Of a stretch of 61,066 bases of DNA, positions 1-61,066 are shown piece after piece; positions within the stretch are counted from its first letter, which is position 1, and every line of letters starts with the position of its first letter. The stretch is from the IMG/VR virus record IMGVR_UViG_3300007734_000736, positions 1 through 61,066 of that record. One strand, 5' to 3'. The position numbers were made by a program, and so were the translations under genes. This DNA comes from a virus. The notes under the pieces were generated by a model. It saw only the letters and a program-made list of their open reading frames with translations, was not told where the DNA came from and did not search any database.

Positions 1-127
1 GCGCCGTGTCGGTGAGTGATTACAGATGGGTGTACTGAGATGTATCCAGTCTTGCCTTTGTGCAGCTCTTTTTGACGCCAGAAGTACGTGCCTCCGCCTT
101 CGTAGTCGTCATTCAAAGCAAGCACCA
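1..127. repeat. Terminal redundancy, left copy (circular closure)
   Basis: Bases 1-127 match 60940-61066 base for base. A length of 127 equals the usual largest k-mer of short-read assemblers, and the repeat lies inside a coding frame that continues across it. It is therefore best read as the overlap of a circular contig, not a biological direct terminal repeat. Confidence 0.95.
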
Positions 128-2276
128 TAGAGATGGATGCACTATCGTGGTGAAGAGCCAAATGACCTTGGATAGCCTCATCGTATTTGATGATGAAGTT
201 TTCGCTTGACATGTTGGTCCACTCCTGTCCTTCTAGTGCCCATTTTTTAATGGCCACTGGATATACATACTCCTCAAGAATGCGCTGGTAGTGCTCCTGA
301 AGTCCGAGCTCATTGATGAGCATGTCACAGGTCGGATAGAAATAGTGACGATTGCGAGTCCAACGACCAGAGTCTTCCGCTTGCTGGATGAGCAAGCTAC
401 AGAACTCTTCCGTAAAGAGCGGGAACACAAATACGTCATTGATGGGCTCATCAACGATAAGCTCCCATTCTTTCGTGCGCGCAGAGTAGGTCACAAAGCG
501 CTGAACAAACTCCTCGTAGGAATAGTTAGATAGATTCATTTCAATTGATTTTGGTTGGTTTTCGGTAGTGGATGTCTCCTTGGTGCTGCTCTGACCGAAC
601 ACCGCTGGAGTTAGCGCAAGGGCCTTGCTGTCTTTCCAAATCCATGAAAGGTCTTTCCGAGGGTGGTCGCAGAACGTAGCACTCAAGAACTCGTCAAGCG
701 GAATGATTGACTTGTCAAAGTTCTGCTCAAGCAGCAAGCGACAGCCTTCGTTTGTGAGCATGTATGCGTGGGTGGTGTACGTGTAGTCTGGCTCTACCAC
801 GCTGTCCGAAATCCTTCTCTTTGGCTGGCGCACAAAGCTGTGGCCCAAGTACAGGATGGTCCATGGCTCTTGGATGGCATCAACCTCAATTGAATTGAAT
901 TGGCGCAGTACGGTGAAGTCCTCCTCCAGGATTAGGATTCGCTTGTATCCATTCTCATAGGCGTCCTTCCATACGCGCCAGTGAGACACGGCACAGCCAA
1001 TCTCTCCCGGAAGAACATCTCGGTTCCACCAGCTGTTGTCGCTGGCAATCTTCCAGTCCTTCCACACGTTGATGCCCGGGGGCATTAGCGAACCAGTATA
1101 GCCGTTTGTGGCATCAAAGATTGTCATGCCTCCAGACTTCACCCCAGAGCCAATGAATCGCTCCAAAAGCTCAAAACGAATCTGAGAGTCTGGGTTGAGT
1201 GATATGATGTAGGTATGGTCTACATCCAAATACTTGTAGTCTCCAGAGGATGGAGTCTTAATGGCGGTGAAGCCACTAAGCTGCTCAAGCGGTATATCAA
1301 CTGTATTTACCATTGTTTTTGATTGAAGTTTGTAAAATAGTGATTTCCATTCATTTACGACGTTGCTCCACCATCTGGTCATAACGTATTCATTTACACA
1401 TTTCCAACAGCTGATGTCGTAAGCAAATTCGCTTAGCGTATCTGCAAGTCCAGCTATTGGGTTGACAATGGGCCTGACCCTGTGTGCAAGCATTTCAATT
1501 GCCGTTATGCAATAAGTCTCATTGTAGCTTGTCGGATAATACCAGTGTTCCATTTGACTGAGCAGCTTATAGAGCTGCTCCGTCTCAAGGGAACCGTGGT
1601 ACTTGATTGACTTGTTGCGCAATACTCTGTCAAGGAAGTTGACATTGAAGTAGTCAACTCCATACTCTGGAGTGGCAATGTGCAGTGTTCCCGTTATCTT
1701 GCCAGACTCAAAGTCATCAAGCACTTTGCCTAGGCCTCTCTCCGCGTGAGACGTATACACATAGGAGTCCTTAATTTTTTTGACTGGATTATGGATTTTG
1801 TGCTGGTCTATGCCGTTTCCAATCACATCAACTTTCTCGGCATCTATGTTGTATCTAGATAGAAAGTCGTTCTTGTGCCATCTGGTAAGGCAAACGATTG
1901 AATCTGAGAGGTCAAAAGCTTCTTGTATGTCATGGTCGGACATCCGCTCTCCATTTAGCCACATGTACGGCTCCTCATTGTGAAGCCAGAATATGCGATG
2001 CTTTACGCTTGAGCCGTCAAACAGTTTGACGTAGTGTAGGTATCCAACGCCGATGAGTATGTCTATCGAATCAGGAAGCAAATCGCGCCGCTCAAACGGC
2101 GCGTATTGCACCGAATCATAGTTGCCCTCTAAGACGTTACCAAACACAAACACATTGTGTCCGGCCACCGACAGCTGATAAGACAAGTTGACCACGCATT
2201 GCTCAGTGCCACCTGGAATCTTTGTGCTCGAGTTCCATGGCTTCGCAAAGTAGCCAACATGAAAGACAATGTTCAT
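1..2276 (-). CDS. GT4-GT25-lysyl hydroxylase fusion, N-terminal and main part (gene crosses the circular junction)
   Basis: An uninterrupted frame runs from ATG at 2276 to base 1 and continues at 60939 down to TAA at 60879-60881, giving about 778 residues. The start overlaps the preceding stop (ATGA). Residues 1-310 look like a GT-B, GT4-type glycosyltransferase: IPGGTE near 20-25 and an E-x7-E motif at E253/E261. Residues 355-562 look like glycosyltransferase family 25, the collagen galactosyltransferase/LPS family: YIISLNPDSQ at 356-365, GEIGCAVSHW at 424-433, LILEED at 448-453, PLDEFL at 526-531. A Ser/Thr-rich linker (563-580) leads to a procollagen-lysyl-hydroxylase (PLOD) domain with HHD at 709-711, YEGGGTYF at 725-732, and H757 and R767. 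The 10-residue His-Arg spacing is as in PLODs. Expected iron ligands are H709, D711 and H757, with R767 binding 2-oxoglutarate. Inferred job: hydroxylate lysines of the neighbouring collagen-like protein and add one or two sugars. Confidence 0.9.
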   Translation of the reverse strand, partial: MNIVFHVGYFAKPWNSSTKIPGGTEQCVVNLSYQLSVAGHNVFVFGNVLEGNYDSVQYAPFERRDLLPDSIDILIGVGYLHYVKLFDGSSVKHRIFWLHNEEPYMWLNGERMSDHDIQEAFDLSDSIVCLTRWHKNDFLSRYNIDAEKVDVIGNGIDQHKIHNPVKKIKDSYVYTSHAERGLGKVLDDFESGKITGTLHIATPEYGVDYFNVNFLDRVLRNKSIKYHGSLETEQLYKLLSQMEHWYYPTSYNETYCITAIEMLAHRVRPIVNPIAGLADTLSEFAYDISCWKCVNEYVMTRWWSNVVNEWKSLFYKLQSKTMVNTVDIPLEQLSGFTAIKTPSSGDYKYLDVDHTYIISLNPDSQIRFELLERFIGSGVKSGGMTIFDATNGYTGSLMPPGINVWKDWKIASDNSWWNRDVLPGEIGCAVSHWRVWKDAYENGYKRILILEEDFTVLRQFNSIEVDAIQEPWTILYLGHSFVRQPKRRISDSVVEPDYTYTTHAYMLTNEGCRLLLEQNFDKSIIPLDEFLSATFCDHPRKDLSWIWKDSKALALTPAVFGQSSTKETSTTENQPKSIEMNLSNYSYEEFVQRFVTYSARTKEWELIVDEPINDVFVFPLFTEEFCSLLIQQAEDSGRWTRNRHYFYPTCDMLINELGLQEHYQRILEEYVYPVAIKKWALEGQEWTNMSSENFIIKYDEAIQGHLALHHDSASISMVLALNDDYEGGGTYFWRQKELHKGKTGYISVHPSVITHRHG

Positions 2277-2833
2277 CGCTCGGTTGAGAAAAAGAACGTC
2301 TGGAAAAGCCTGCCGTTCTCCTTGCTGTTCCCAAAATAGTCAAGTGACGTATGGAATTGCTTACCCTGGTATAAAATCAAACGATTGTAGACGTTCCCAA
2401 CAGACGAAACTAACTCCCATTTGGTCATGTCTTGAGAGTCGTTATTCCACGTCCCCTTGCCTCCATTATCAGACCACATGAGACCAGTACTCTTATGTTT
2501 GAAGAATCCAGTACCGCTAGACAGTGGGGCGTTGGGAGTTAGGTATACCACGCCGGCCCACTTGGTGCCATGGTCAGCGTGAATCCAAGACCTATCTCTA
2601 GCTGTTGTTATCTGGAATGCGCCATTGTAGTCATCGGTTGGGAAGTAGTTAATCTTTCCCGCAAATGGCTCTACAATGTGCTGTAGCGTATCAAACACGC
2701 TTTGATTGAACTCTGGCTTAGTCCTTGCTCCTGGAAAATTCCCAGTAACAGGAAAATCCTGCGCTAGGGCAAACTCCCTAACCTCGTCTGGATTGTTGTA
2801 GAAACCATCTACAACGAACGCACTCATTACCAT
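2273..2833 (-). CDS. 2-oxoglutarate/Fe(II) oxygenase-like protein (DUF6445-like)
   Basis: This 186-residue protein has the double-stranded beta-helix signature of 2OG-Fe(II) oxygenases: a WIHADHG segment giving the HxD pair H85/D87, a distal H161 in QGKQFHTSLDYF, and R175 fourteen residues later as the probable co-substrate arginine. The overall pattern resembles the DUF6445 family, recalled and not searched. It lies directly after the collagen-like gene and overlaps the start of the GT4-GT25-lysyl hydroxylase gene by four bases, so the two are translationally coupled. Inferred role: a hydroxylase acting on the collagen-like fibre or on a sugar added to it; the target residue cannot be read from sequence. 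Translation could start at 2833 or at the in-frame ATG at 2827. Confidence 0.8.
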   Translation of the reverse strand: MVMSAFVVDGFYNNPDEVREFALAQDFPVTGNFPGARTKPEFNQSVFDTLQHIVEPFAGKINYFPTDDYNGAFQITTARDRSWIHADHGTKWAGVVYLTPNAPLSSGTGFFKHKSTGLMWSDNGGKGTWNNDSQDMTKWELVSSVGNVYNRLILYQGKQFHTSLDYFGNSKENGRLFQTFFFSTER

Positions 2834-2912
2834 TCAATTAAGTCTTATGACTCAAATGTACGTCACAGAGTTGAGGAAAACAAACGGGGCGCTTTTGGGC
2901 GCCCCGCATGTT

Positions 2913-5900
2913 TTAGGTCCAAATTGGGAAGTAGTAGTCTGTTCCTCCAACTCCAACCTTTCCCCATCCATACGTTGTTTTACCGGTATCGTCTGGGACC
3001 TCTGCGTTAAATCCACATGCCCCACATGTCACGCTAGACGCAGCGACGTTGACACTTCCAGTAGCTCCTTTCTGTCCTTTAGGACCTTGTGAGCCAGTGG
3101 GTCCAGTTGCGCCGGTTGGGCCAGTTGGGCCAGTTGGTCCAGCAGGTCCTTGAGCTCCAGTGTTACCTTTTGCTCCCTGGGGTCCAGTAGGACCAGCAGG
3201 TCCTTGAGGTCCCGTGGCTCCCTGAGCGCCAGTGTTGCCCTTCGCTCCCTGAGGTCCGGTTGGGCCAGTGGCTCCAGTATTTCCCTTCGCTCCCTGTGGT
3301 CCAGTTGGTCCGGTAGGTCCGGTAGGTCCAGTAGGACCAGTTGCTCCGGTGTTTCCTTTTGCTCCTTGAGGACCAGTGGGTCCGGCAGGTCCTTGAGGTC
3401 CAAGAGGGCCCGTAGGTCCGGTGGGACCCTGGGGTCCAGTAGCACCAGTTGCGCCTTTTTGGCCCTTTGTTCCTTGAGCTCCAGTTGGACCAGTGGGTCC
3501 GGCAGGTCCTTGAGGTCCAAGAGGGCCCGTAGGTCCGATGGGACCCTGGGGTCCAGTAGGTCCTTGCGCTCCAGTAACTCCCTTTTGCCCCTTTGCGCCT
3601 TGAGGTCCAGTAGCGCCAGTTGGGCCAGTGGGCCCAGTGGCTCCTTGAGGACCGGTTGGTCCCTGGGCTCCAGTTACACCTTTTTGACCCTTTGCTCCCT
3701 GGGGACCAGTAGGTCCAGTGGCTCCTTGAGGACCGGTTGGTCCCTGCGGTCCAGTCGGTCCTTGAGCTCCAGTAACTCCCTTCTGGCCTTTAGCGCCCTG
3801 GGGCCCAGTAGGCCCAGTAGGACCGGTAGGACCTTGGGCTCCTTGCGCTCCCTTTTGCCCCTGAGCACCCTGAGGACCAGTTGGTCCAGTTGCACCTTGG
3901 GGTCCAGCTGCTCCAGTGTTACCCTTGGCACCCTGGGGCCCGGTAGGTCCCGCGGGTCCTTGTGGCCCAAGAGGACCAGTAGGCCCAGTAGGACCTGTTG
4001 GCCCAGTTGCGCCTTGAGGTCCAGTTACACCTTTTTGACCTTTTGAGCCCTGAGCACCAGTGGCCCCCTGAGGTCCAGTAGGTCCGGTTGGTCCAGTAGC
4101 TCCAGTTGCACCTTTTTGACCCTTAGGTCCTTGGTCTCCAGTTGGACCCATGTCGCCCTTGTCTCCCTTTCCGCCTTTTTCTCCCTGAGCTCCAGTAGCA
4201 CCAGTGGCTCCCTGAGCACCAGTATTTCCCTTGGGGCCCTGGGGTCCAGTAGGACCAGTGGGCCCAGTGGCTCCTTGAGGACCAGTAGCACCAATCTCAC
4301 CCTTTTGTCCCTTCGGGCCCTGAGGTCCGGTTGGTCCAGTGGGACCAGTAGCGCCCTGCGGGCCAGTAGCACCTTGAGCACCGGTATCGCCCTTAGGACC
4401 CTGTGAGCCATCACGGCCTTTGTTTCCCTGGTCGCCCTTGGTTCCCTTGTCTCCAACTGGGCCAACAGGTCCGGTCGGACCAGTCGGGCCCGTAGCTCCT
4501 TGGGCACCAGTGTTTCCCTTCGCTCCCTGCGGACCAGTTGGTCCTTGGGCACCAGTATTACCCTTTGCTCCCTGCGGACCAGTTGGTCCCTGGGGACCAG
4601 TGGGCCCAATGTCTCCTTTGGGTCCCTGGGGACCAGTGGGTCCAACATCTCCCTTGGGGCCTTGGGCTCCAGTGGGTCCGGTAGGACCAGTAGGTCCAGT
4701 GGGTCCCTGGGCTCCAGTTACACCTTTTTGACCTTTTGCGCCCTGAGCACCAGTTGGGCCAGTGGGGCCAGTAGGACCGGTTGCGCCCTGTGGGCCTGTT
4801 GCGCCAGTGTCGCCTTTGGGCCCCTGTGAGCCATCACGGCCCTTTTGGCCTTGGTCTCCTTTAGTCCCCTTGTCTCCAGTAGGGCCGGTAGGACCAGTAG
4901 GACCGGTAGGCCCAGTAGCACCCTGGGGGCCAACATCACCTTTCGGACCTTGGGCACCAGTAGGACCAGTAGGTCCAGTGGGACCAGTGGCTCCCGTGGC
5001 ACCTTTTGTTCCCTGAGGGCCGGTAGGGCCGGTAGGTCCAGTGGGGCCCTGGGCTCCAGTATCACCCTTAGGCCCTTGAGAACCATCGCGGCCCTTATTG
5101 CCCTGGTCTCCCTTGTTCCCTTGAGGACCAGTTGGACCAGTAGGGCCGGTGGGTCCGGTAGCCCCTTGAGCACCAGTATCTCCTTTTGGACCAGTAGGAC
5201 CAGTAGGACCAGTGGGGCCAAGGTCTCCTTTAGGGCCCTGCGCTCCAGTTGGACCAGTGGGTCCAGTAGGACCAGTGGGGCCAAGGTCTCCTTTTGGTCC
5301 TTGGGCACCGGTATCGCCCTTAGGACCCTGAGAACCATCACGACCTTTTTGGCCCTGGTCTCCCTTGTTCCCTTGAGGACCAGTTGGACCAGTAGGACCA
5401 GTAGGCCCAGTGGCTCCTTGGGCTCCAGTATCTCCTTTTGGACCAGTAGGTCCGGTAGGACCAGTTGCTCCTTGGGGACCGGTATCGCCTTTGGGCCCCT
5501 GGGAGCCATCACGGCCTTTTTGACCTTGGTCGCCCTTATCGCCCTGTGGCCCGGTAGGTCCAGTGGGTCCTGTGGGGCCAGTAGGTCCAGTAGCACCTTG
5601 AGGACCGAGGTCTCCTTTAGGACCCCGGTCTCCTTTAGGGCCCTGGTCTCCTTTTGGTCCTTGAACTCCGTCTCGACCCTTTTCTCCTTTTAAGCCCTGT
5701 TCTCCTTGCGGTCCGGCAGGTCCAGTGGGGCCTGTGGGTCCTGTGGGCCCTTGAGGACCAAGGTCGCCCTTGGGGCCCTGGGCTCCAGTGTTGCCCTTGG
5801 GTCCAATGTCTCCTTGCGGTCCAGTTGCTCCAGTCGCACCTTTTTGACCCTGGTCTCCTTTGGGACCAACGTCTCCTTTGGGGCCTTGGTCTCCTTTAGG

Positions 5901-7142
5901 GCCTTGGTCTCCCTTAGGACCTTGGTCTCCTTTTGGTCCAGTGGCCCCATCACGACCTTTTTCTCCTTTTGAACCCTGGTAGCCCTTATCGCCCTGAGGT
6001 CCGGTTGGACCAGTGGGACCGGTAGGTCCGGTAGGTCCAGTTGCTCCAGTTACACCCTTTTGGCCCTGGTCTCCCTTGGGACCCTGGTCGCCTTTAGGAC
6101 CTTGAACCCCATCACGACCTTTTTCTCCTTTTGAGCCCTGGTCGCCCTTTTCTCCTTGAGGTCCGGCAGCGCCAGTATTTCCCTTTGCTCCGGTAGGACC
6201 CTGAGGACCAAGGCCTCCCTTAGGACCTTGAGGTCCAATGTCGCCCTTGGGACCAATGTCTCCTTGAGGGCCAGTTGCTCCTTTAGGACCAGTAGCTCCA
6301 TCACGACCTTTTTCACCCTTTCCTCCCTGGTCTCCCTTATCTCCCTGAGGCCCGGTGGGTCCAGTGGGACCAGTGGCACCTTGGGGGCCAAGGTCTCCTT
6401 TGGGACCTTGAGCCCCGGTGTCCCCCTTGGGACCTTGAATTCCAGTATCTCCTTTCTGTCCTTTAGGACCTTGTGAGCCAGTGGGTCCAGTTGCGCCGGT
6501 TGGGCCAGTTGGGCCAGTTGGGCCAGTTGGTCCAGCAGGCCCTTGAGCTCCAGTGTTACCTTTTGCTCCCTGTGGTCCCTGAGGCCCTGTTGGTCCGGTA
6601 GGTCCAGCGGGTCCTTGAGCTCCAGTGTTACCTTTTGCTCCCTTGGGTCCTTGAGGACCAGTTGGTCCAGTAGGTCCAAGCGGTCCCTCTCTTCCTTTCT
6701 CGCCCTTCGAGCCTTGAGGTCCAGTTGGTCCAGTTGGACCAGCGGGCCCTTGAGGTCCTGTGGCTCCCTGAGCTCCGGTATTACCCTTCGCTCCCTGAGG
6801 TCCGGTTGGGCCAGTGGCTCCAGTATTTCCCTTCGCTCCCTGTGCTCCAGTTGGTCCGGTAGGTCCGGTAGGTCCAGTAGGACCAGTTGCTCCGGTGTTT
6901 CCTTTTGCTCCTTGAGGACCAGTGGGTCCGGCAGGTCCTTGACTTCCAGTATCTCCCTTTGGGCCAGAAGGACCAGCAGGACCAGTAGCTCCGGGGGCAC
7001 CCTTGTCTCCTTTTGCAGAAGCACCTCCAGATGCACCCTTAGCTCCCTTGGTTCCTTTTGAACCAGGGAGCTGCTGAACTCCATTATTGGTAATCTCTAC
7101 AGAGGATGGGCCAGGAAGGTTGATGTCAATTTCTAATGCCAT
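2913..7142 (-). CDS. Collagen-like fibre protein (1409 residues)
   Basis: A 26-residue N-terminal segment is followed by an almost unbroken Gly-X-Y domain (about residues 27-1362) and a 47-residue C-terminal cap containing CGAC and ending YYFPIWT. One early interruption occurs near GGASAKG. Typical triplets are [21 protein letters not shown] and GQK. Lysine sits in the Y position and is followed by Gly, the context used by collagen lysyl hydroxylases. Proline is nearly always in X and threonine is very common in Y. I noticed only one Y-position Pro, a GAP near the N-terminus. Such proteins form trimeric triple helices in phage fibres. The upstream neighbour is a probable fibre-base protein; downstream follow three oxygenases and two glycosyltransferase domains. 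The long antisense and shifted frames here are composition artefacts. Confidence 0.95.
3065..3396. repeat. Duplicated block inside the collagen gene, copy near the 3' end
   Basis: Bases 3241-3396 match 6787-6942 over 156 bp with one mismatch that I can see. Bases 3065-3180 match 6449-6573 apart from one extra 9-bp triplet unit and small changes. This block codes for the C-terminal end of the Gly-X-Y domain and repeats the sequence coding for its N-terminal end. Confidence 0.85.
6449..6942. repeat. Duplicated block inside the collagen gene, copy near the 5' end
   Basis: Partner of the block at 3065-3396, about 3.4 kb away in the same orientation. Because the flanking collagen code is itself repetitive, the exact borders are soft. 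Confidence 0.85.
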
Positions 7143-7143
7143 A

Positions 7144-7527
7144 CTAGTTTACAGTAATATCTTGAGTAATAGTAAATTGACCATACATGTAGGTAGTAAC
7201 TACGTCTGGGTTCGGGGTTGGATTAGTAGCTTGAATTTCATAAACAAACGTACCAGCGTTTACCAACATATTAGGGGCACTAATAGTAACAGTAAGAACC
7301 CCAAGAGCTGTTCCGGTTACAGTGATGTTTGAACTTGCAATTACAATAGGACCAGTGTCATATTCACGGACTTCCATCTTCCAGGTGAACACGCTAAGGT
7401 CTACGGCCGTACCGTTTGCGTCCTTGATGGTGGCAATCAAAACAAATGTGTCTCCGCGCCAACAAACGATGTCTACGCGAGTGGCAATACTTACGACTGC
7501 TGTAGGGGTTGTATCACAACACGACAT
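7144..7527 (-). CDS. Fibre-base or baseplate-upper-like small protein
   Basis: This 127-residue, beta-rich protein ([16 protein letters not shown], then alternating strands ending [11 protein letters not shown]) resembles the N-terminal Ig/jelly-roll domain of BppU-type fibre adaptors. It lies two bases upstream of the collagen-like gene and shares its promoter (TAAATTTG at 7532-7539). The inference is that it anchors the collagen fibre to the virion. No enzymatic motif is visible. Confidence 0.6.
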
Positions 7528-7531
7528 AGCG

Positions 7532-7539
7532 CAAATTTA
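7532..7539 (-). promoter_or_regulatory. TAnnTTTG promoter element (TAAATTTG)
   Basis: A Bacteroidota-type -7 box lies five bases before the ATG of the fibre-base gene; it could drive the fibre-base, collagen and modification operon. It sits in the short gap after the portal gene start region is read through, and no clear -33 TTG is visible. Confidence 0.5.
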
Positions 7540-9975
7540 CTGGTTAGTTAGTGCATCCATTAGACCCGAGTTGAAGGCTGGAGCCTCTTCGCCTTTGCGC
7601 TGAGAAATCAATTTAGACTGAGCTTCAGCCTGTTTGTTGATTCGAGCGTCCTTTCTGTTTTCCTTCATCGCATCAGTCATTTCTTGTGTCTGACCACGAA
7701 CAGCTTGAGACTCGACCATACCCTGATTTTTTAGCTGTTGAAGCTCCATCTCATACGAGTATTGAAGCTGCATTAACTGGGCTTTTGCTTCGGTTTCAAG
7801 TTGGATTTTTTGAGCTTCAAGTTGTGCCTTCAACTGCTCTGCTTGCATCGTAGACTGAGCAGCAACTTGAGCAGCCTGTGCATTAGCTTCAGCTTGGAAC
7901 TGAGCCTGCTGCTGAGCTTCATCCATGCGCTGCTTCATGCGCTTTTTGCGGCGAACAACCAGAAGGCGCTCCGCTTGCTCTGGGTCGCGGAGCTGACGGA
8001 TAGCAATAGCGTCCTCAAGGTCAATCTCTTTTTGAGATAGGGCCATGTTGATGTTTTGCTCCAGGTAGATTTTGGAGCGGTCGTCCATTTCTCCCATTAC
8101 GATGACGCCAAAGTTGTACATCGAGAGGTTATCAAACGAACTCAGGATGGCCATGTTGGTCTCCCCAATGGCGTTGGTGTAAACCTTGTAGATGATGCTC
8201 TTGGGCGGGATTACCTGCAAGCAGCGCACGATGTCCTCACAGACCTTCTTGTAAAGGACCTGTGCGGCGTGAGTGATGTCGTAGGTTGCGTTGTTTGAAG
8301 CGGCAATGGCCTGCTCGCGAACGCCCACAAGCGCATCTGCCTTTGGGGTGCTTGCGTCAACTACCTCATTGATTCCCGTTGCGTCGCGAATCATGCGCAG
8401 GTAGTGGTTGTACAATGCGACCAACTCTTGGATGTTGCGGATGGCATTGCCAATCTCCCGCACCGGCGGGTTTTGGAACCCGCCTTCGGGATTCTTAGAG
8501 CGGTAGTAGAATACACCAGTTTGCTCGTAGATGTCCTGAATCTCCAGAGGCTGCAGTTCTCCACCCCGTCCGAGCTGTACGTTCTCCAGGCCTTCGATAT
8601 CGATGATGAGTCCATCAGGCTTAGCCTTGGCAATGGACTGCTGAATCTTCAAGTGAGTGATTTGAAGCATGTCTCCAAATCCAATCACACTTGACACCAT
8701 TGACTTCGGAATCATACCGCGAAGGTTCGTGGCTACGCAAGAGTATGAAAGGCGAGCGCGAGCAATATCATGTACGTTCTTCGGGATGTTCTTCTGAACT
8801 CCGTAGTTGTACATCAGCTCAGTACCAATTACGTACACGCCACCGTAGACGGTAGCGTTCTTCATGTACACAGCCTCGCGGTCGAATACTGATTGCTGCG
8901 GGGCGTTGTAGCTGTGGCCTTTGTAGTAGAACCCGATGTTGCCAAACTTGGACTCTTTCTTTTCGAACACGATGTCGTCTACCGACATGAATTCAAACTC
9001 CATGATTTGGACCTTGTACTCGTCGTATCCGTAGCGGTAGCGGTTGCTGATGGTCTCGTAGTTGTAGCCTTGGGTAGCGTAGCGCAGCGGGTCATTTCCG
9101 TAACGGTTCATTACCGTTTGGGCAATCTGTTGGTACTGCTCTTCGGTAAACTGATTTCCTGCAAGACGCTTGAGCTCCATGATGGTTACCGTACGGAAGT
9201 GACCAGCGTAGGTCAGGTCCGCCATGTTGGGGTCGTCCGTGTAGTTGTGGATGAAGTATGCCGGGTCTACGTACTGCTCACGAATGCCGTAGTTAGGGTC
9301 ATTGGTGCGCTTGGTAATGGCGATGCCGCACGTAACGAGGTCCTCAACGCAGCGGCGGTAGATGCCGTCGTCGAAGTCGTTCCACGTAAGAGTCATTTCC
9401 GTGGCCAGCTGTGCAGCAATCTCTGCATCAGTTTTCACGTTCGTGTCCAGGAAGATTTCCGTTTCCTCGGGAGTGTCCGGAAGCGAGTCCGGGTCAACGC
9501 GCACGTTCAAGCCAAGAGCCTTTGCCTCTTGGAGCATCTCCTTGTTTTCGATGTGAAGGATGGTGGCGTTCTTCTTTTTGTCTTTCTCGCTGCGTGACAA
9601 CGGGTCAACAGCCTGTACTTGTGGGTAGGGCTTGCGAGACAGAATCTTGTTTACGACGATGCGAACAAACTTGGGAATGATGGGAACTGGAGTGTAGTCC
9701 AGCGTAAGCATCGTTCCGTCTCCGTTGTTGGCATCCAGTGAGCTCAAGATTTGCCGATAGATGGACGTGTCTTGAGTTCCTTGAGCATAGTCTCGGTTGT
9801 TCTGCATTTCATTGAACCGACGACCATACAATGAATTGTTGTAGTCAACCCCAATCCACTGAGCATACATGGCCTTAGCATACTGAAGGCCATAGGATTG
9901 CGACATCTTTTCTTCCGTACTCGCTAGCGGGTCCGGGAACGTAGATTGACCTTTTGCTGTATAATCTCTTTGCAT
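7537..9975 (-). CDS. Portal protein
   Basis: This 812-residue protein lies immediately downstream of the terminase, the usual portal position. It has the mixed alpha/beta body of large portals (LDYTPVPIIPKFVRIVVNKI near residue 95) and an extended Gln/Ala-rich coiled-coil C-terminus (about 690-770) that would form the barrel. Length and position fit crAss-like and related podoviral portals. Its role is the dodecameric ring through which DNA enters and leaves the capsid. It has its own TATATTTG promoter element at 9997-10004. Confidence 0.85.
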   Translation of the reverse strand: MQRDYTAKGQSTFPDPLASTEEKMSQSYGLQYAKAMYAQWIGVDYNNSLYGRRFNEMQNNRDYAQGTQDTSIYRQILSSLDANNGDGTMLTLDYTPVPIIPKFVRIVVNKILSRKPYPQVQAVDPLSRSEKDKKKNATILHIENKEMLQEAKALGLNVRVDPDSLPDTPEETEIFLDTNVKTDAEIAAQLATEMTLTWNDFDDGIYRRCVEDLVTCGIAITKRTNDPNYGIREQYVDPAYFIHNYTDDPNMADLTYAGHFRTVTIMELKRLAGNQFTEEQYQQIAQTVMNRYGNDPLRYATQGYNYETISNRYRYGYDEYKVQIMEFEFMSVDDIVFEKKESKFGNIGFYYKGHSYNAPQQSVFDREAVYMKNATVYGGVYVIGTELMYNYGVQKNIPKNVHDIARARLSYSCVATNLRGMIPKSMVSSVIGFGDMLQITHLKIQQSIAKAKPDGLIIDIEGLENVQLGRGGELQPLEIQDIYEQTGVFYYRSKNPEGGFQNPPVREIGNAIRNIQELVALYNHYLRMIRDATGINEVVDASTPKADALVGVREQAIAASNNATYDITHAAQVLYKKVCEDIVRCLQVIPPKSIIYKVYTNAIGETNMAILSSFDNLSMYNFGVIVMGEMDDRSKIYLEQNINMALSQKEIDLEDAIAIRQLRDPEQAERLLVVRRKKRMKQRMDEAQQQAQFQAEANAQAAQVAAQSTMQAEQLKAQLEAQKIQLETEAKAQLMQLQYSYEMELQQLKNQGMVESQAVRGQTQEMTDAMKENRKDARINKQAEAQSKLISQRKGEEAPAFNSGLMDALTNQ

Positions 9976-10014: not shown

Positions 10015-12117
10015 TCAGCGTAAGATGACCCGACCAGGGCGGAAGAACTTCTTTACATCAAAGTTGGTTTTCTCTTTCTTGACCGTCGCTCCTTGCGCTG
10101 CTAAAAGCGCAAGGCCGCTGGAGATGGAAAGGTCAAATGCAGTACGGTCGTCAACCTTGAAGTTAATCCAATCTTCAAGGGTTCGGTCAAAATACATCTT
10201 CCCAAATTCCATGGTCTCTTCGTTCACTCCAACGTGAGAATGGATGAACGCTTCAATGGCTTGAGCATGTGCCTGAATGATGTCCTGCGAGTTCGACGGA
10301 ATACCCTTTGTTTTGCTTCCTCCTCCATATCCAGAACCAAGGTGTTCAGGCCTGTTCATCAGGTAGTTATCGTATCCGCGCTGCTCAAAATATCGTGCGA
10401 TTCCATACTTGTTGTTCTCAATCAGAATTGAGTATCCATAGAACTTCGCCGCCATTAGAACGTCCTCATAGAATATCTTGGCCAGCGGAGGACGTGAAGC
10501 ATACTCTGCAACAAACATGTTTGCCGGATACTGCAGGTTGAACTTGTTGTACAGATGGCACGCGCCCTTAGAGCCGCGGCCATCTACGGTAGCATCAATG
10601 TCGTAGGAGTCAACTCCACCCACACCGAGCCATTCGTTCTGTGGACCCTGTTTGTTTCTGAGCTCATACGGGGGCATCCAAGCCACTCTCCAGCGTCCAT
10701 TTGCATCCGGCTTGAAGTAGACCTCAGTGTCTTGCTTTCCGTCCTTCCAGACAAAGTTTCCGACAAGGATTGGGTTTGGGTACAAGTCCTGGTTGTACTG
10801 AATCTGTTCGTATATCTTCTGGACGTTGAACACCGAGGCCTTGGCGCTGTCACGAAATGCCTCTGCCTCGCTGAAAGGGAACTGGCGAATCACCTCGTTG
10901 AGTTCGTAGCTGTCGTTCACTAGGGCCTTTCTCTCGTTCTTCAGGAATGTCTTGGCTCCGATGGTGACCATATTCCCGTCGATACCAAGGATTGGCACCT
11001 CTGGGTCTTCAACTATAGGATGACCGTAGACATCGAAGAATCCCTCTAGCGACTCATAGGCAGGCATGAACAGCCTGTAGAGACCGCTCTTGGTGCGTCC
11101 GTTTTCGTTTCGTTCGTTTGGGTTGCTGCTGTACACCAGGTCCCGGAACTGTCGGCCCCCTTTGTCAAGGGGGTTTACCGTGCTTCCTACGATAGCCTTT
11201 CCTACGATGTTTCTACCAACCAACAGACAGGTGCGATGAATTCGCCAAGACTCGCGAATGTCGCTTGGCTTCTCCCACTTGCCAGCCTCATCCATGTACA
11301 GGATATGAAGTTTCTCACCGTCATAAGCGTTGTTTGTTGTGTTCTTCCAGTTGATTACCGTGTTGAGGGCGTCTCCTCGGGTGGCCGTCTTGACCTTCTT
11401 GGTGATTCGCTTTGATGGCTCGCGAAATGCAAGCTCCATGCGCGGGTTGGTGGTACCGTCCTGGATGGGCTTGAAGAAGAATGGCAGCGACTTGTAGATT
11501 GGCATTACCTTCTTCATGAAGATGTTCTCCTGCGCATCACCACCCGTCTTGGACATGATACCCAACAGCTTGTCTTTTACCTGAGAACCCTCGTTAACCA
11601 GCACTGAAGAGGTCATCTGCGTATATCCGGAACGACGGCACTTGACGTACACCTGGCCAAGGCATCTGTCGTCCACAGCACAGGCTTCCATGTGCAGGAA
11701 CAGCGTTCTCTGGAAGCTCAAGAACTCAGGATAGCCGATATCAATCTTGGCCCACTGAAGAAAGAAGTAGTGATTTCCAGTTATGTACGTTGGAACACCG
11801 TTGTTGTAGAACCACACGCCTTTTCTCCTGCGCTCAAACTCCTGAGATATGTAGCCCATGTAGCGCTTCTTGAACTCCTCTGGCATGGCGGCCCACTCGT
11901 CCATAGTCTTAATGCGCTGGATGTCGTCCGGTAGCTCAAGTCGAGTCCATCGTTGCTCGTGCTGAGGAAGGTCGTGAAAAAGGATTTTCTTCTTGTCTGG
12001 CTGCTTTGGAAGCTGGATTGGCAAATCGCCAATCACCTCGACATCCCCCATGGTTCCGTCGTGGCAAATACTGACAACCTGCCCAGTATAATCCTTATGT
12101 TCAACAAGACCAGCCAT
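10015..12117 (-). CDS. terL: Terminase large subunit
   Basis: This 700-residue DNA-packaging ATPase/nuclease has a variant Walker A segment CRRSGYTQ (160-167), a Walker B LYMDEAGK (273-280), a coupling-like VGSTVNP (310-316) and an RNase-H-type nuclease start GVDSYDID (501-508). The N-terminal ITGNHYFFLQWAKIDIGYP region resembles terminases of crAss-like phages. It cuts concatemeric DNA and pumps it through the portal encoded next. The start is fixed by a TAATG overlap with a 39-residue upstream ORF. Confidence 0.93.
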   Translation of the reverse strand: MAGLVEHKDYTGQVVSICHDGTMGDVEVIGDLPIQLPKQPDKKKILFHDLPQHEQRWTRLELPDDIQRIKTMDEWAAMPEEFKKRYMGYISQEFERRRKGVWFYNNGVPTYITGNHYFFLQWAKIDIGYPEFLSFQRTLFLHMEACAVDDRCLGQVYVKCRRSGYTQMTSSVLVNEGSQVKDKLLGIMSKTGGDAQENIFMKKVMPIYKSLPFFFKPIQDGTTNPRMELAFREPSKRITKKVKTATRGDALNTVINWKNTTNNAYDGEKLHILYMDEAGKWEKPSDIRESWRIHRTCLLVGRNIVGKAIVGSTVNPLDKGGRQFRDLVYSSNPNERNENGRTKSGLYRLFMPAYESLEGFFDVYGHPIVEDPEVPILGIDGNMVTIGAKTFLKNERKALVNDSYELNEVIRQFPFSEAEAFRDSAKASVFNVQKIYEQIQYNQDLYPNPILVGNFVWKDGKQDTEVYFKPDANGRWRVAWMPPYELRNKQGPQNEWLGVGGVDSYDIDATVDGRGSKGACHLYNKFNLQYPANMFVAEYASRPPLAKIFYEDVLMAAKFYGYSILIENNKYGIARYFEQRGYDNYLMNRPEHLGSGYGGGSKTKGIPSNSQDIIQAHAQAIEAFIHSHVGVNEETMEFGKMYFDRTLEDWINFKVDDRTAFDLSISSGLALLAAQGATVKKEKTNFDVKKFFRPGRVILR

Positions 12118-56992: not shown

Positions 56993-58387
56993 TTAGGCCT
57001 TGATAAGGATGTGCTGGTTGGCGGCACGCGTAACCAGAGCGCACTCCGAACGGTAGTTGAACTGCAGTGAGTCCTCGTTCGTGTTAGCAACGCCCAGGAT
57101 AGAACCGGTCATCCAGTGCTCCATTTCACGGCTGTAGCCGTTCGTGTCCTTGTAGTTAAGCTCCAAGGCAGCGGCGCGGTTGCCGGTCTTGGGGTCAACA
57201 ACAGTAGTCATCGGAATCATCACACCGAGGTACTTAGAACCAGACAACAAGGTCGGGTCGTTCAGAAGCTTCCAAGAGTGCTTGTGGAACGTGTAAGAAC
57301 CACGAGAGAATGATTTGAATCCGAGCATAGCGGCTTCGTTTACTTTACCACCGAAGGCGTTAACACCAATGGTAGCGCTACCGAATCCAGCAGCTCCGTT
57401 CAACGAGGCAACCATGTCGTCGATGTCCAGGTCTTGAGCCGTATTGACGTACATGGCGTACTCGGGAGCAGCGCCTTGCTTGTCAAGTTCAGCAACCAAG
57501 ATGTCCATTTCAGCAAGGCTGTCGATGAGGCCAGACTGTACGATACCGCGGTTTTCGATGGCAGAGAAGTAGCCTTCGCCAGCCGTAGGAAGACCTCCGA
57601 TGTTCGTAGTGGTCAGGGTGTTGCTGATGCTTTGACCAAGCAACAACATCATTTCACGCTTATCGAGGAAACGAGCACGAGTGTCCATTTCGCCCTTAAC
57701 GTACCAGCGGTAGTCGCCGTTACCTACGTTAACCCAGCCAATGTTGGTGGCTTGAGAACCGGTAACCTTGAATACTTCCTTGATGATGCTGTAAGCGTTG
57801 GTACGCTTGATTACGTTAGACTCCAAGTATCCGTTGTTCTGGTCAGAACCTTGAGCAAACAGGTTTCCGATAACCGGAAGGTTAACAGAAGCCGTGCTTA
57901 CAGAAGCGGTCAAACCAGAGCTAGAAAGAGCCTGGAAGGTGTAGTTAGCGGTAGCGTTGTTTGCGATTTCACCGGTCGGGCTGATGGCCGTAACGATGAA
58001 GCGGTCTTGACCACCAACAAGAACTACGTCATTCAAACGAAGAACAGAAGCGTCGCTGGTTGCCTTTGCTCCTACGAAGGTCGTAGCGGCGGCAGCGGCA
58101 GAAGCCGTGGGAGCTACGGTAGCGTAGGCATGCAAGCGGGTTTCTTCCCAGTACTGAACCTCATCGGCGGTACCGTTTCCGCGTACTGCGCCTGTAAGGT
58201 TTAGGAACCCCGTAAGACCTCCGCTGATTTGCTGGTAACCGTAGGTCTTAACCAGTTGGTCGCGGTTGTCCGGAGCGTTTACTTCGTCGATGTAGTCGGC
58301 CAAGGAGGTGTACTTGGTCGGGTCAAGGCGGCGGAATACTGCTGCCTTGTTATCATTATACACGGGAGGTGCACTAGATGTAGCCAT
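56993..58387 (-). CDS. Major capsid protein
   Basis: 464 residues, Ala/Thr/Asn-rich with moderate charge, as in HK97-fold capsid proteins. Residues near 225-250 (GDYRWYVKGEMDTRARFLDK) resemble the spine-helix region of crAss-like capsids. It lies between the scaffold gene and a strong terminator, the expected place for the most abundant protein. No separate protease gene is visible. Confidence 0.8.
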   Translation of the reverse strand: MATSSAPPVYNDNKAAVFRRLDPTKYTSLADYIDEVNAPDNRDQLVKTYGYQQISGGLTGFLNLTGAVRGNGTADEVQYWEETRLHAYATVAPTASAAAAATTFVGAKATSDASVLRLNDVVLVGGQDRFIVTAISPTGEIANNATANYTFQALSSSGLTASVSTASVNLPVIGNLFAQGSDQNNGYLESNVIKRTNAYSIIKEVFKVTGSQATNIGWVNVGNGDYRWYVKGEMDTRARFLDKREMMLLLGQSISNTLTTTNIGGLPTAGEGYFSAIENRGIVQSGLIDSLAEMDILVAELDKQGAAPEYAMYVNTAQDLDIDDMVASLNGAAGFGSATIGVNAFGGKVNEAAMLGFKSFSRGSYTFHKHSWKLLNDPTLLSGSKYLGVMIPMTTVVDPKTGNRAAALELNYKDTNGYSREMEHWMTGSILGVANTNEDSLQFNYRSECALVTRAANQHILIKA

Positions 58388-59551: not shown

Positions 59552-59941
59552 TCACGAGCGAAACTTCTTTGTCTTCTTTGCTATTGATTTTGGCTGAGGC
59601 ACAAACTGCTTTCCTTGCCTGCTACCCTCGCGTTTAGCGCGAGTGGTAGCTGCGTATTCTGCTGGTGTTAAGGACTTTATGGCTTTTTCCGGCAGGTAGC
59701 GCTCTCCAGTTTCCTTGGACGGCTTACCACTTTTTGTACGCCAGTTCTGCTGGGTCCACTTTGACAGAGATGTCGAACGCTTGGGGCCCGCGTAAGACCC
59801 TCCGGCTTTCTTGTATAACGAAACGGCTAATTGGGCTTTCCTCGCACTCCACTGACCAGGGTTTCCACCCTTGCTTCCAGCCTTCACTCTGGCAACTATT
59901 TGTTTCCAAAGCGCGGGGTTTTTCTTTTGAGCTGTTGCCAT
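59552..59941 (-). CDS. Small basic protein, DUF5872-like (129 residues)
   Basis: SLSKWTQQNWRTKSGKPS, then GERYLPEKAIKSLTPAEYAA is the DUF5872 pattern seen in phages and giant viruses. Probably virion-associated. Overlaps the previous stop by one base. Confidence 0.75.
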   Translation of the reverse strand: MATAQKKNPALWKQIVARVKAGSKGGNPGQWSARKAQLAVSLYKKAGGSYAGPKRSTSLSKWTQQNWRTKSGKPSKETGERYLPEKAIKSLTPAEYAATTRAKREGSRQGKQFVPQPKSIAKKTKKFRS

Positions 59942-60261
59942 CAGATTCCACGTGTATACTTCTGAGACTTCGGTGGCATCTTCTTGTCTGCACTTGGGCC
60001 TCCCCAGAAAAACTTATTAGCCCAGTAGGCTGCGCTAGACGGACCTTTTGCAATGTTCTTTGCGTGACGGGTCTTGAATGCCTTGCGAGCCTCTGGGCTA
60101 TAGTTGTGACCCATTTTCTGGTCACCAAATCGAATGATACGTGGACGACCATCAATCTTGACCGCCACGATACCTTTCTTCGTAGGATGCGATGGAGTCT
60201 TCTTGGGCTTGCTGAAGCCAGAAAGACCGTAGCGCTTTAGGAAGTCTGCATCGTTTGCCAT
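59941..60261 (-). CDS. Small basic conserved protein (106 residues)
   Basis: IIRFGDQKMGHNYSPEARK followed by AYWANKFFWGG; a short basic protein type shared by phages and large viruses, often next to DUF5872 proteins. Function unknown. Confidence 0.7.
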   Translation of the reverse strand: MANDADFLKRYGLSGFSKPKKTPSHPTKKGIVAVKIDGRPRIIRFGDQKMGHNYSPEARKAFKTRHAKNIAKGPSSAAYWANKFFWGGPSADKKMPPKSQKYTRGI

Positions 60262-60279: not shown

Positions 60280-60879
60280 CTACTTATAGCTATTCCCCCC
60301 CGCCCAAAGGACCAAGGACTCACGCACTCCGCTAGTTACAGGAGTAACTCTGTGTAACAAATATGATGGAAAAATTATCACCGTGCCCTGGGCTTTTGAA
60401 GCTGTTGCCTCGCCAGAACCTGAGCGAATCTCTAGTTCTCCGCCCTGGTAATCATTTGGGTCGCTAAGCTGAACCACGAGAGAAATCTTACGAAAGGCAA
60501 GCTCATTAGGCCCAATGTCCATGTGCCAATTGTAGAAGCCTTTCTCAGTTGCCTCGTACTGGGTGTACTGAATTGAATCTTGAATGGACTGCAGGTCGAA
60601 CTGCCACATGTTATCATTGGCGATAGTCATGTAGTTCATCAGTCGGTCGTACAGCCAACCGTGGGGGTTGGCTCGGGGAATCCACTTGATGTTTGACTTA
60701 CGCACTTGATTGAGCGCTTCGTCTTCAAAATTGGCAGCTACTTGCCCACGAGAGATGGGAATTACGCTTGCCTCCTTCTTGATTTTGGCAATCTCCTCCT
60801 TGTTGAAAGCAGAGTCAAAGTAGTACCAGCCAGTCATATCGCGGCCTTTGCCGCGGTCAAATGTTGGATTGAGGTTCAT
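60280..60879 (-). CDS. 2-oxoglutarate/Fe(II) oxygenase (prolyl-4-hydroxylase/PiuC-like)
   Basis: 199 residues. WHMDIG gives H119/D121, YQGGELEI lies on the next strand, and H176 with R186 complete the metal and 2-oxoglutarate sites. This is the PKHD/P4H-type layout. The ATG overlaps the TAA of the GT4-GT25-lysyl hydroxylase gene (TAATG), so it is the last coupled enzyme of the collagen operon. Likely substrates are the collagen-like protein or its glycans; proline is less likely, since Y-position Pro is nearly absent there. Confidence 0.85.
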   Translation of the reverse strand: MNLNPTFDRGKGRDMTGWYYFDSAFNKEEIAKIKKEASVIPISRGQVAANFEDEALNQVRKSNIKWIPRANPHGWLYDRLMNYMTIANDNMWQFDLQSIQDSIQYTQYEATEKGFYNWHMDIGPNELAFRKISLVVQLSDPNDYQGGELEIRSGSGEATASKAQGTVIIFPSYLLHRVTPVTSGVRESLVLWAGGNSYK

Positions 60880-61066
60880 TATTTATTTCGGTTACAGAAT
60901 GAAACAAGTACAAAGCGCTTACCCTTGGTTACTGCACGTGCGCCGTGTCGGTGAGTGATTACAGATGGGTGTACTGAGATGTATCCAGTCTTGCCTTTGT
61001 GCAGCTCTTTTTGACGCCAGAAGTACGTGCCTCCGCCTTCGTAGTCGTCATTCAAAGCAAGCACCA
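60879..61066 (-). CDS. GT4-GT25-lysyl hydroxylase fusion, C-terminal end (continues from base 1)
   Basis: The last 61 codons and stop of the gene described at 1-2276. It carries the second half of the lysyl-hydroxylase domain: YEGGGTYFW, the metal ligand H757 in THRHG, and R767 in KGKRFVLVSF. Bases 60940-61066 duplicate 1-127; the unique part is 60879-60939. Read alone it would be mistaken for a small 2OG-oxygenase fragment. Confidence 0.9.
   Translation of the reverse strand, partial: VLALNDDYEGGGTYFWRQKELHKGKTGYISVHPSVITHRHGARAVTKGKRFVLVSFCNRNK
60940..61066. repeat. Terminal redundancy, right copy (circular closure)
   Basis: Identical to bases 1-127; see the left copy. Confidence 0.95.

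Follow-up and report, generated by a model that had tools for sequence, protein, structure and literature searches.

The 61,066-nucleotide IMG/VR virus record IMGVR_UViG_3300007734_000736 (positions 1 to 61,066, the whole stretch analysed, here called the window) encodes three different 2-oxoglutarate (2OG)/Fe(II) oxygenases and two glycosyltransferase (GT) domains between its portal and capsid genes, beside a gene for a long collagen-like protein. We read these genes as a phage collagen-maturation cassette, with a probability of roughly 0.6. The neighbouring collagen-like protein, presumably a virion fibre, would be the substrate of all the cassette enzymes. A lysyl hydroxylase (LH) domain would convert Lys at the Y position of the Gly-X-Y triplets (Gly-X-Lys, 101 sites) to hydroxylysine, a GT25 domain of the same chain would add the first sugar (galactose by homology), and a GT4 domain would probably add the second. 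In addition, an enzyme resembling prolyl 4-hydroxylase (P4H) may hydroxylate Pro at X (216 sites) and not at Y, and a protein of family DUF6445 may hydroxylate Gln at Y (112 sites), the product being a putatively stiff, hydrated, heavily hydroxylated and glycosylated triple-helical fibre. Judged from sequence, action of the LH domain on Y-Lys is very likely and glycosylation of the hydroxylysine by the same chain likely, X-Pro as the target of the P4H-like enzyme has about an even chance, and Gly-X-Gln as the target of DUF6445 is a tentative assignment that falls somewhat short of even.

The two ends of the record are identical over 127 bp, indicating a circle of 60,939 bp. The gene of the LH-containing protein, described in the first-pass annotation as PLOD-like, spans this joint (2276 to 1, then 60939 to 60879; 778 aa) and is complete only after closure at the terminal repeat, so treating the three enzymes as one locus by linear coordinates was rejected. 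The coordinates given in that annotation, 60280-60879, cover the P4H-like gene and neither of the other two. On the circle the three oxygenase genes adjoin and run in the same direction downstream of the collagen-like gene, the minus-strand order being terminase, portal, a 127-aa protein, collagen, DUF6445, the GT4-GT25-LH fusion, P4H-like, two small basic proteins and the capsid genes:

10015-12117, minus strand: terminase
7537..9975, minus strand: portal protein, upstream landmark (phrog_6547, 1.2e-182)
7144..7527, minus strand: 127-aa protein (phrog_1084) between the portal and collagen genes
2913..7142, minus strand: collagen-like protein, 1,409 aa, presumed substrate, with a single run of 440 Gly-X-Y triplets
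2884..2907, minus strand: GC-rich hairpin, 9 pairs (8 G-C), between the collagen stop and the DUF6445 start
2273..2833, minus strand: DUF6445 2OG-Fe(II) oxygenase, 186 aa (PF20043, 2.1e-12; H85, D87, H161 and R175)
1257..2276, minus strand: GT4 domain of the fusion protein, residues 1-340, GT-B fold (PF13439, 2.1e-8)
552..1241, minus strand: GT25 domain of the fusion protein, residues ~346-575 (PF01755, 4.2e-12)
1..536, continuing at 60939, minus strand: LH domain of the fusion protein, residues ~581 on (H709, D711, H757)
60940..61066, no strand: terminal direct repeat, identical to 1-127
60879..60939, minus strand: 3' end of the fusion gene, with the end of the LH domain, R767 and the stop
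60280..60879, minus strand: P4H-like 2OG-Fe(II) oxygenase, 199 aa (PF13640, 2.8e-14; H119, D121, H176 and 2OG Arg R186)
59941-60261 and 59552-59941, minus strand: two small basic open reading frames between the P4H-like and capsid genes, of unclear cassette membership
56993..58387, minus strand: virion structural protein, probable major capsid protein, downstream landmark (phrog_13704, 6.4e-106)

The start of the fusion gene overlaps the DUF6445 gene by 4 bp (ATGA), and the start of the P4H-like gene overlaps the fusion stop by 1 base (TAATG), which suggests coupled translation. Both overlaps also bear on whether the oxygenases could be auxiliary metabolic or nucleic acid-modifying enzymes unrelated to the fibre, as the PHROG class ('moron, auxiliary metabolic gene and host takeover') would have it. 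We consider this very improbable, given that the cassette lies among structural genes with its fusion gene overlapped at both ends, that the nearest folds are protein or peptidyl hydroxylases and that collagen co-occurs with the enzymes.

The fusion protein carries GT4 at residues 1-340, GT25 at 346-575 and LH at 581-778; its two glycosyltransferase domains had gone unmentioned in the first-pass annotation. The LH part matches mimivirus L230 and human LH3 with E values of 3e-22 to 6e-22 from sequence alone and 3.8e-38 with a profile. L230 hydroxylates and glycosylates collagen Lys, with H825, D827, H877 and R887 important by mutation and Tyr814 at the 2OG site (PMC5802723), and in the alignment these residues correspond to H709, D711, H757, R767 and Tyr698 of the window protein. 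The first four are those named by the first-pass annotation and are present once the frame is closed across the joint. Among LH homologues the iron-binding triad (HxD..H) is kept in 49 of 49, and the 2OG-binding position is Arg in 42 and Lys in 7, the latter forming a marine group (L007, L008, L009, L010, L011, L088 and L091). The nearest solved relative of the GT25 part is the C-terminal catalytic domain of human COLGALT1, procollagen galactosyltransferase 1 (E 2e-15 alone, 1.5e-30 with a profile; PF01755 at 46.8 bits against a cut-off of 24), and its acidic motif LEED aligns with FEDD of COLGALT1, the motif Glu and Asp being invariant in 27 relatives. The GT4 part reaches 34.8 bits with PF13439 (cut-off 28.5) and matches GT-B glucosyltransferases in Foldseek, while PF00534 scores below its cut-off there. 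A domain profile scan gave no match to the PLOD-type GT domain (PF25342) in the window fusion protein, which we therefore describe as an LH-domain protein whose architecture is not that of an LH3 orthologue. An AlphaFold2 model of a 72%-identical homologue (predicted local distance difference test score [pLDDT] 86; predicted template modelling score 0.46, so that the domain arrangement is uncertain) matches LH3, COLGALT1, GT-B glucosyltransferases and the crystal structure of the L230 LH domain (6ax6; template modelling [TM] score 0.85 by target length, 29% identity).

The other two oxygenases likewise have their named residues (H119/D121/H176/R186 in the P4H-like protein, H85/D87/H161/R175 in DUF6445), so that all twelve residues behind the earlier claim of three apparently intact enzymes in one operon are in place. 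Loss of iron ligands in homologues was looked for and none was found: besides the LH triad, the P4H-like HDHR set is kept in 31 of 31 distinct sequences, and the DUF6445 set is kept in 10 of 10 and is invariant over 47 rows. The P4H-like protein also matches phrog_61 (1.8e-37) and the PKHD-type hydroxylase PiuC (1e-10). DUF6445 reaches 47.9 bits with PF20043 (Pfam cut-off 24), a family without known function, and a comparison of its sequence with solved structures gave no convincing match. Its model (pLDDT 94) is a double-stranded beta-helix with the conserved ligands, closest in VIA-align to OGFOD1 (Z 15.1, root mean square deviation 2.4 over 158 residues) and also near PHD2, bacterial P4H and the PBCV-1 collagen prolyl hydroxylase (Z range 13.5-15). 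The modelled fold supports a peptidyl hydroxylase and does not tell the target residue. As a side observation, the PHROG names 'minor coat protein', 'ferrochelatase' and 'DNA endonuclease (V)' sit on families that match these 2OG oxygenases (phrog_1644, phrog_3531, phrog_2297, phrog_274 and phrog_61), and phrog_61 (689 positions) matches the GT25-PLOD GT-LH protein of Roseobacter phage CRP-6 over most of its length, yet is named only '2OG-Fe(II) oxygenase'.

The collagen-like protein has 445 Gly-X-Y triplets in total, with Pro (216), Ala (95) and Asp (46) prominent at X and Thr (181), Gln (112) and Lys (101) at Y. Lys does not occur at X, and all 101 Lys of the triplets are at Y, leaving about a hundred Gly-X-Lys sites for the LH domain. 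The near-absence of Y-Pro, and with it of the classical collagen P4H target, was correctly seen in the first-pass annotation (1 of 445 triplets). Across related viruses, Y-Pro as a target of the P4H-like enzyme can be dismissed, having no association with P4H presence, and because of both results we do not file the enzyme as a classical collagen P4H.

These relations were examined by regression in a comparison of some 140 related virus records. For the viral collagens, residue frequencies at the X and Y positions (40 features) were regressed on the presence of LH, P4H-like and DUF6445 enzymes, scored on whole records where possible. Near-identical records were collapsed (80% DNA identity clusters), and P values are family-wise by permutation. 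The record sets came from searches centred on LH, DUF6445, P4H and portal, plus an enzyme-blind collagen sample chosen by a DNA pattern of Gly spacing; the fragmentary records L262 and L265, which would have counted as enzyme-minus, were left out.

For LH, the best of the 40 features is Y-Lys (t 5.7-11, P < 0.0002), a positive control in line with the known LH specificity. For DUF6445 it is Y-Gln (t 3.7-4.4, P 0.001-0.004), an association that also holds after adding whole records, and the triplets most raised are GPQ, GAQ, GFQ and GNQ. Over the full set, X-Pro ranks first for the P4H-like enzyme (t 4.2-5.2, P < 0.0002). Four records of the enzyme-blind sample are DUF6445-plus, and their Y-Gln ranges from 0.32 to 0.75, compared with a median of 0.19 (P = 0.003); for LH (n = 3) and P4H (n = 5) this sample is too small. 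The targets earlier suggested for the first and third enzymes (sugars, Thr, Lys or another virion protein) are thus not favoured, since P4H-like tracks X-Pro and DUF6445 tracks Y-Gln; Thr in particular was rejected, as DUF6445 goes with less Y-Thr (t -3.0) and P4H-like has no link to Thr. Where the LH profile weakly matched P4H records (24-31 bits), it had picked up the P4H genes, and such matches were not scored as LH. Two observations on LH stand apart: Gln at X is likewise associated with its presence (t 4.1-7.5), a link surpassed only by that with Y-Lys, and L071 and L434 have LH with X-Pro of 0.72-0.94 and almost no Y-Lys.

Such associations could reflect shared ancestry or the base composition of a few lineages and not enzyme targets, since the records are related, only the 80% identity clusters were collapsed and the permutations do not model the tree. 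We hold this to be unlikely: the LH and DUF6445 associations hold with the window lineage left out, the DUF6445 association holds in LH-minus records alone (P = 1.5e-5), Y-Lys for LH agrees with known biochemistry, and the P4H association holds in sister pairs. On the tree of the fusion protein, P4H is missing at three separate places, each time with X-Pro below that of the P4H-plus sister (0.02 in L269 versus 0.23 in L174; 0.03 in L020/L256 versus 0.25 in L019; 0.00 in L102 and L107 versus 0.09-0.10 in L100 and L101). L091, with X-Pro of 0.49 and no P4H within 10 kb, was predicted to have one, which was then found elsewhere in the record (8e-47). Furthermore, the two DUF6445-minus branches (L174/L269 and L019/L020) have Y-Gln of 0.00-0.05, against 0.18-0.35 in DUF6445-plus branches except L181 (0.08).

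Several results nevertheless weigh against assigning all three enzymes to the collagen. Within LH-plus records alone, the DUF6445 association with Y-Gln has P = 0.07, and the association of P4H with X-Pro falls short of significance after correction when records are limited to those of at least 25 or 40 kb. Some P4H-plus collagens are nearly free of X-Pro (L181, L236-L245 and G178), X-Pro or Y-Gln is present in many phage collagens that have none of these enzymes beside them, and the LH-plus records G003, G010 and G025 encode Gln-rich collagens without detectable DUF6445. A Gln-rich DNA pattern failed as a marker of DUF6445, being found in 9 of 20 DUF6445-plus and 10 of 24 collagen-bearing DUF6445-minus records. 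In addition, the enzyme flags are partly wrong in fragmentary records, the supply of a residue can precede or outlast its enzyme, and collapsing at 80% DNA identity is an incomplete correction for ancestry, so that the associations are not proof of activity.

It is possible, though we find it doubtful, that only the LH-GT protein acts on collagen, and that P4H-like and DUF6445 travel with the cassette while hydroxylating another virion or host protein or a small molecule. The missing Y-Pro, the fading of the X-Pro link in long records, the 'minor coat protein' label of DUF6445 relatives in PHROG, the DUF6445 and P4H genes that often lie tens of kb from the collagen gene and the DUF6445 records without collagen (G181, G182 and G188) would all fit. 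However, the top-ranked of the 40 features is, for each enzyme, a residue at a defined position that makes chemical sense, in an analysis whose LH control came out correctly, loss of P4H accompanies loss of X-Pro three times, and in L124-L131 DUF6445 lies directly behind the collagen gene without LH or P4H, making these records a simple system for DUF6445 alone.

The cassette reading could be carried further, with DUF6445 as a peptidyl-glutamine hydroxylase of collagen-like fibres and phages carrying a Lys(Y)/Pro(X)/Gln(Y) hydroxylation-glycosylation code readable from fibre composition. We regard this extension as speculative and on balance improbable; a literature search, mostly of open-licence papers, found no description of peptidyl-glutamine hydroxylation of collagen, which also counts against Gln as a target.

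The arrangement recurs in other viruses. A protein search recovered five close loci, all ordered collagen, DUF6445, fusion, P4H, with relatives at 60-80% identity, and a profile search recovered 317 related contigs. The same functions are found in cultured phages, namely, Synechococcus phages S-PRM1, S-CAM9 and S-8S55 and Roseobacter phage CRP-6, whose protein combines GT25, a PLOD-type GT and LH at 24-28% identity in another gene context. One to three genes upstream of this LH protein, these phages encode a protein carrying 55-99 Gly-X-Y triplets, whose annotation reads tail fibre or hypothetical. CRP-6 lacks a P4H-like gene. PF25342 is present in S-PRM1 (9e-46), CRP-6 and L011, and this domain of S-PRM1 matches mimivirus R699 (2.8e-31). 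These cultured marine phages thus have, on a single chain, each of the three enzyme families that make up the Glc-Gal-hydroxylysine pathway in humans. A run of eight Gly-X-Y codons occurs somewhere in 22 of 32 LH records, most of the others being fragments, and DUF6445-selected records without nearby collagen have LH elsewhere in 7 of 12 cases. GT25-only records were rejected as collagen-free controls, since 3 of 12 contain collagen and two of those three DUF6445. Other virus contigs (L202, L233, L234 and L236-L245) have a GT4+LH protein of 570-603 aa that lacks GT25, next to collagen and P4H-like genes.

With respect to known systems, a close parallel is L230, a bifunctional LH-glycosyltransferase with homologous LH, LH and GT in one chain and a viral collagen substrate. 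The window differs in belonging to a virus of bacteria and not of amoebae, in its GT domains (GT4 and GT25) and in having two further oxygenases alongside. The human complex of LH3/PLOD3 with COLGALT1 (PDB 8zgc) likewise brings LH and collagen GT25 families to one substrate, but with two polypeptides in place of one, two GT25 domains in place of one and a PLOD-type GT where the window has GT4. Unlike the window, the cultured marine phages retain the PLOD-type GT. Mimivirus R699 glucosylates galactosyl-hydroxylysine, with activity on collagen shown (PMC9546862); a GT of this type is absent from the window, where GT4 may take its place. The P4H-like enzyme is a small 2OG oxygenase, as are PBCV-1 vCPH and the Bacillus anthracis P4H, but is unlike collagen P4Hs in that its closest solved relative by sequence is PiuC and its presumed substrate lacks Y-Pro. 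In (PPG)n, prolines at both X and Y are hydroxylated by the Bacillus anthracis enzyme (PMC8968730), providing a precedent for an X-Pro target.

Phage prolyl hydroxylase genes have been noted before, and their use called cryptic (PMC9301287); a 2022 review puts the length of phage collagens at about 18 residues and leaves viral collagens out of consideration (PMC8968730). In the open-licence literature we found no paper on a phage lysyl hydroxylase, a phage collagen GT25, a cyanophage collagen hydroxylase or DUF6445. Viral collagen maturation is already known, and the phage LH-GT25 cassette appears to be a new form of it; Gln hydroxylation by DUF6445 would go beyond this. Hydroxylation and glycosylation of collagen Lys have been treated as a trait of eukaryotes and giant viruses, and in the phages considered here a single chain joins the LH and COLGALT families, with some such phages cultured on Synechococcus and Roseobacter relatives, which makes the chemistry accessible on virions. 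The cassette offers compact bacterial-virus sources of candidate collagen-modifying enzymes, a first target hypothesis for DUF6445 and a possible explanation for many cyanophage 'tail fibre-adjacent 2OG oxygenases' whose use was called cryptic (PMC9301287). A further question that it poses is whether the PLOD and COLGALT of eukaryotes have a viral or a bacterial origin. Bacterial LH-domain homologues at 42-48% identity (L452, L453, L454, L455, L457 and L460) have no collagen within 10 kb; they are standalone in Thiothrix fructosivorans, other Thiotrichaceae, Leucothrix and Aquificaceae metagenome-assembled genomes and fused to GT25 in Chryseosolibacter and Aquimarina.

MW202828, the named phage nearest to the window by terminase, lacks both collagen and a cassette of this kind between its portal and capsid genes. 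Within the window, the hairpin at 2884-2907, by consensus match, is a possible attenuator and could reduce expression of the enzymes relative to the fibre.
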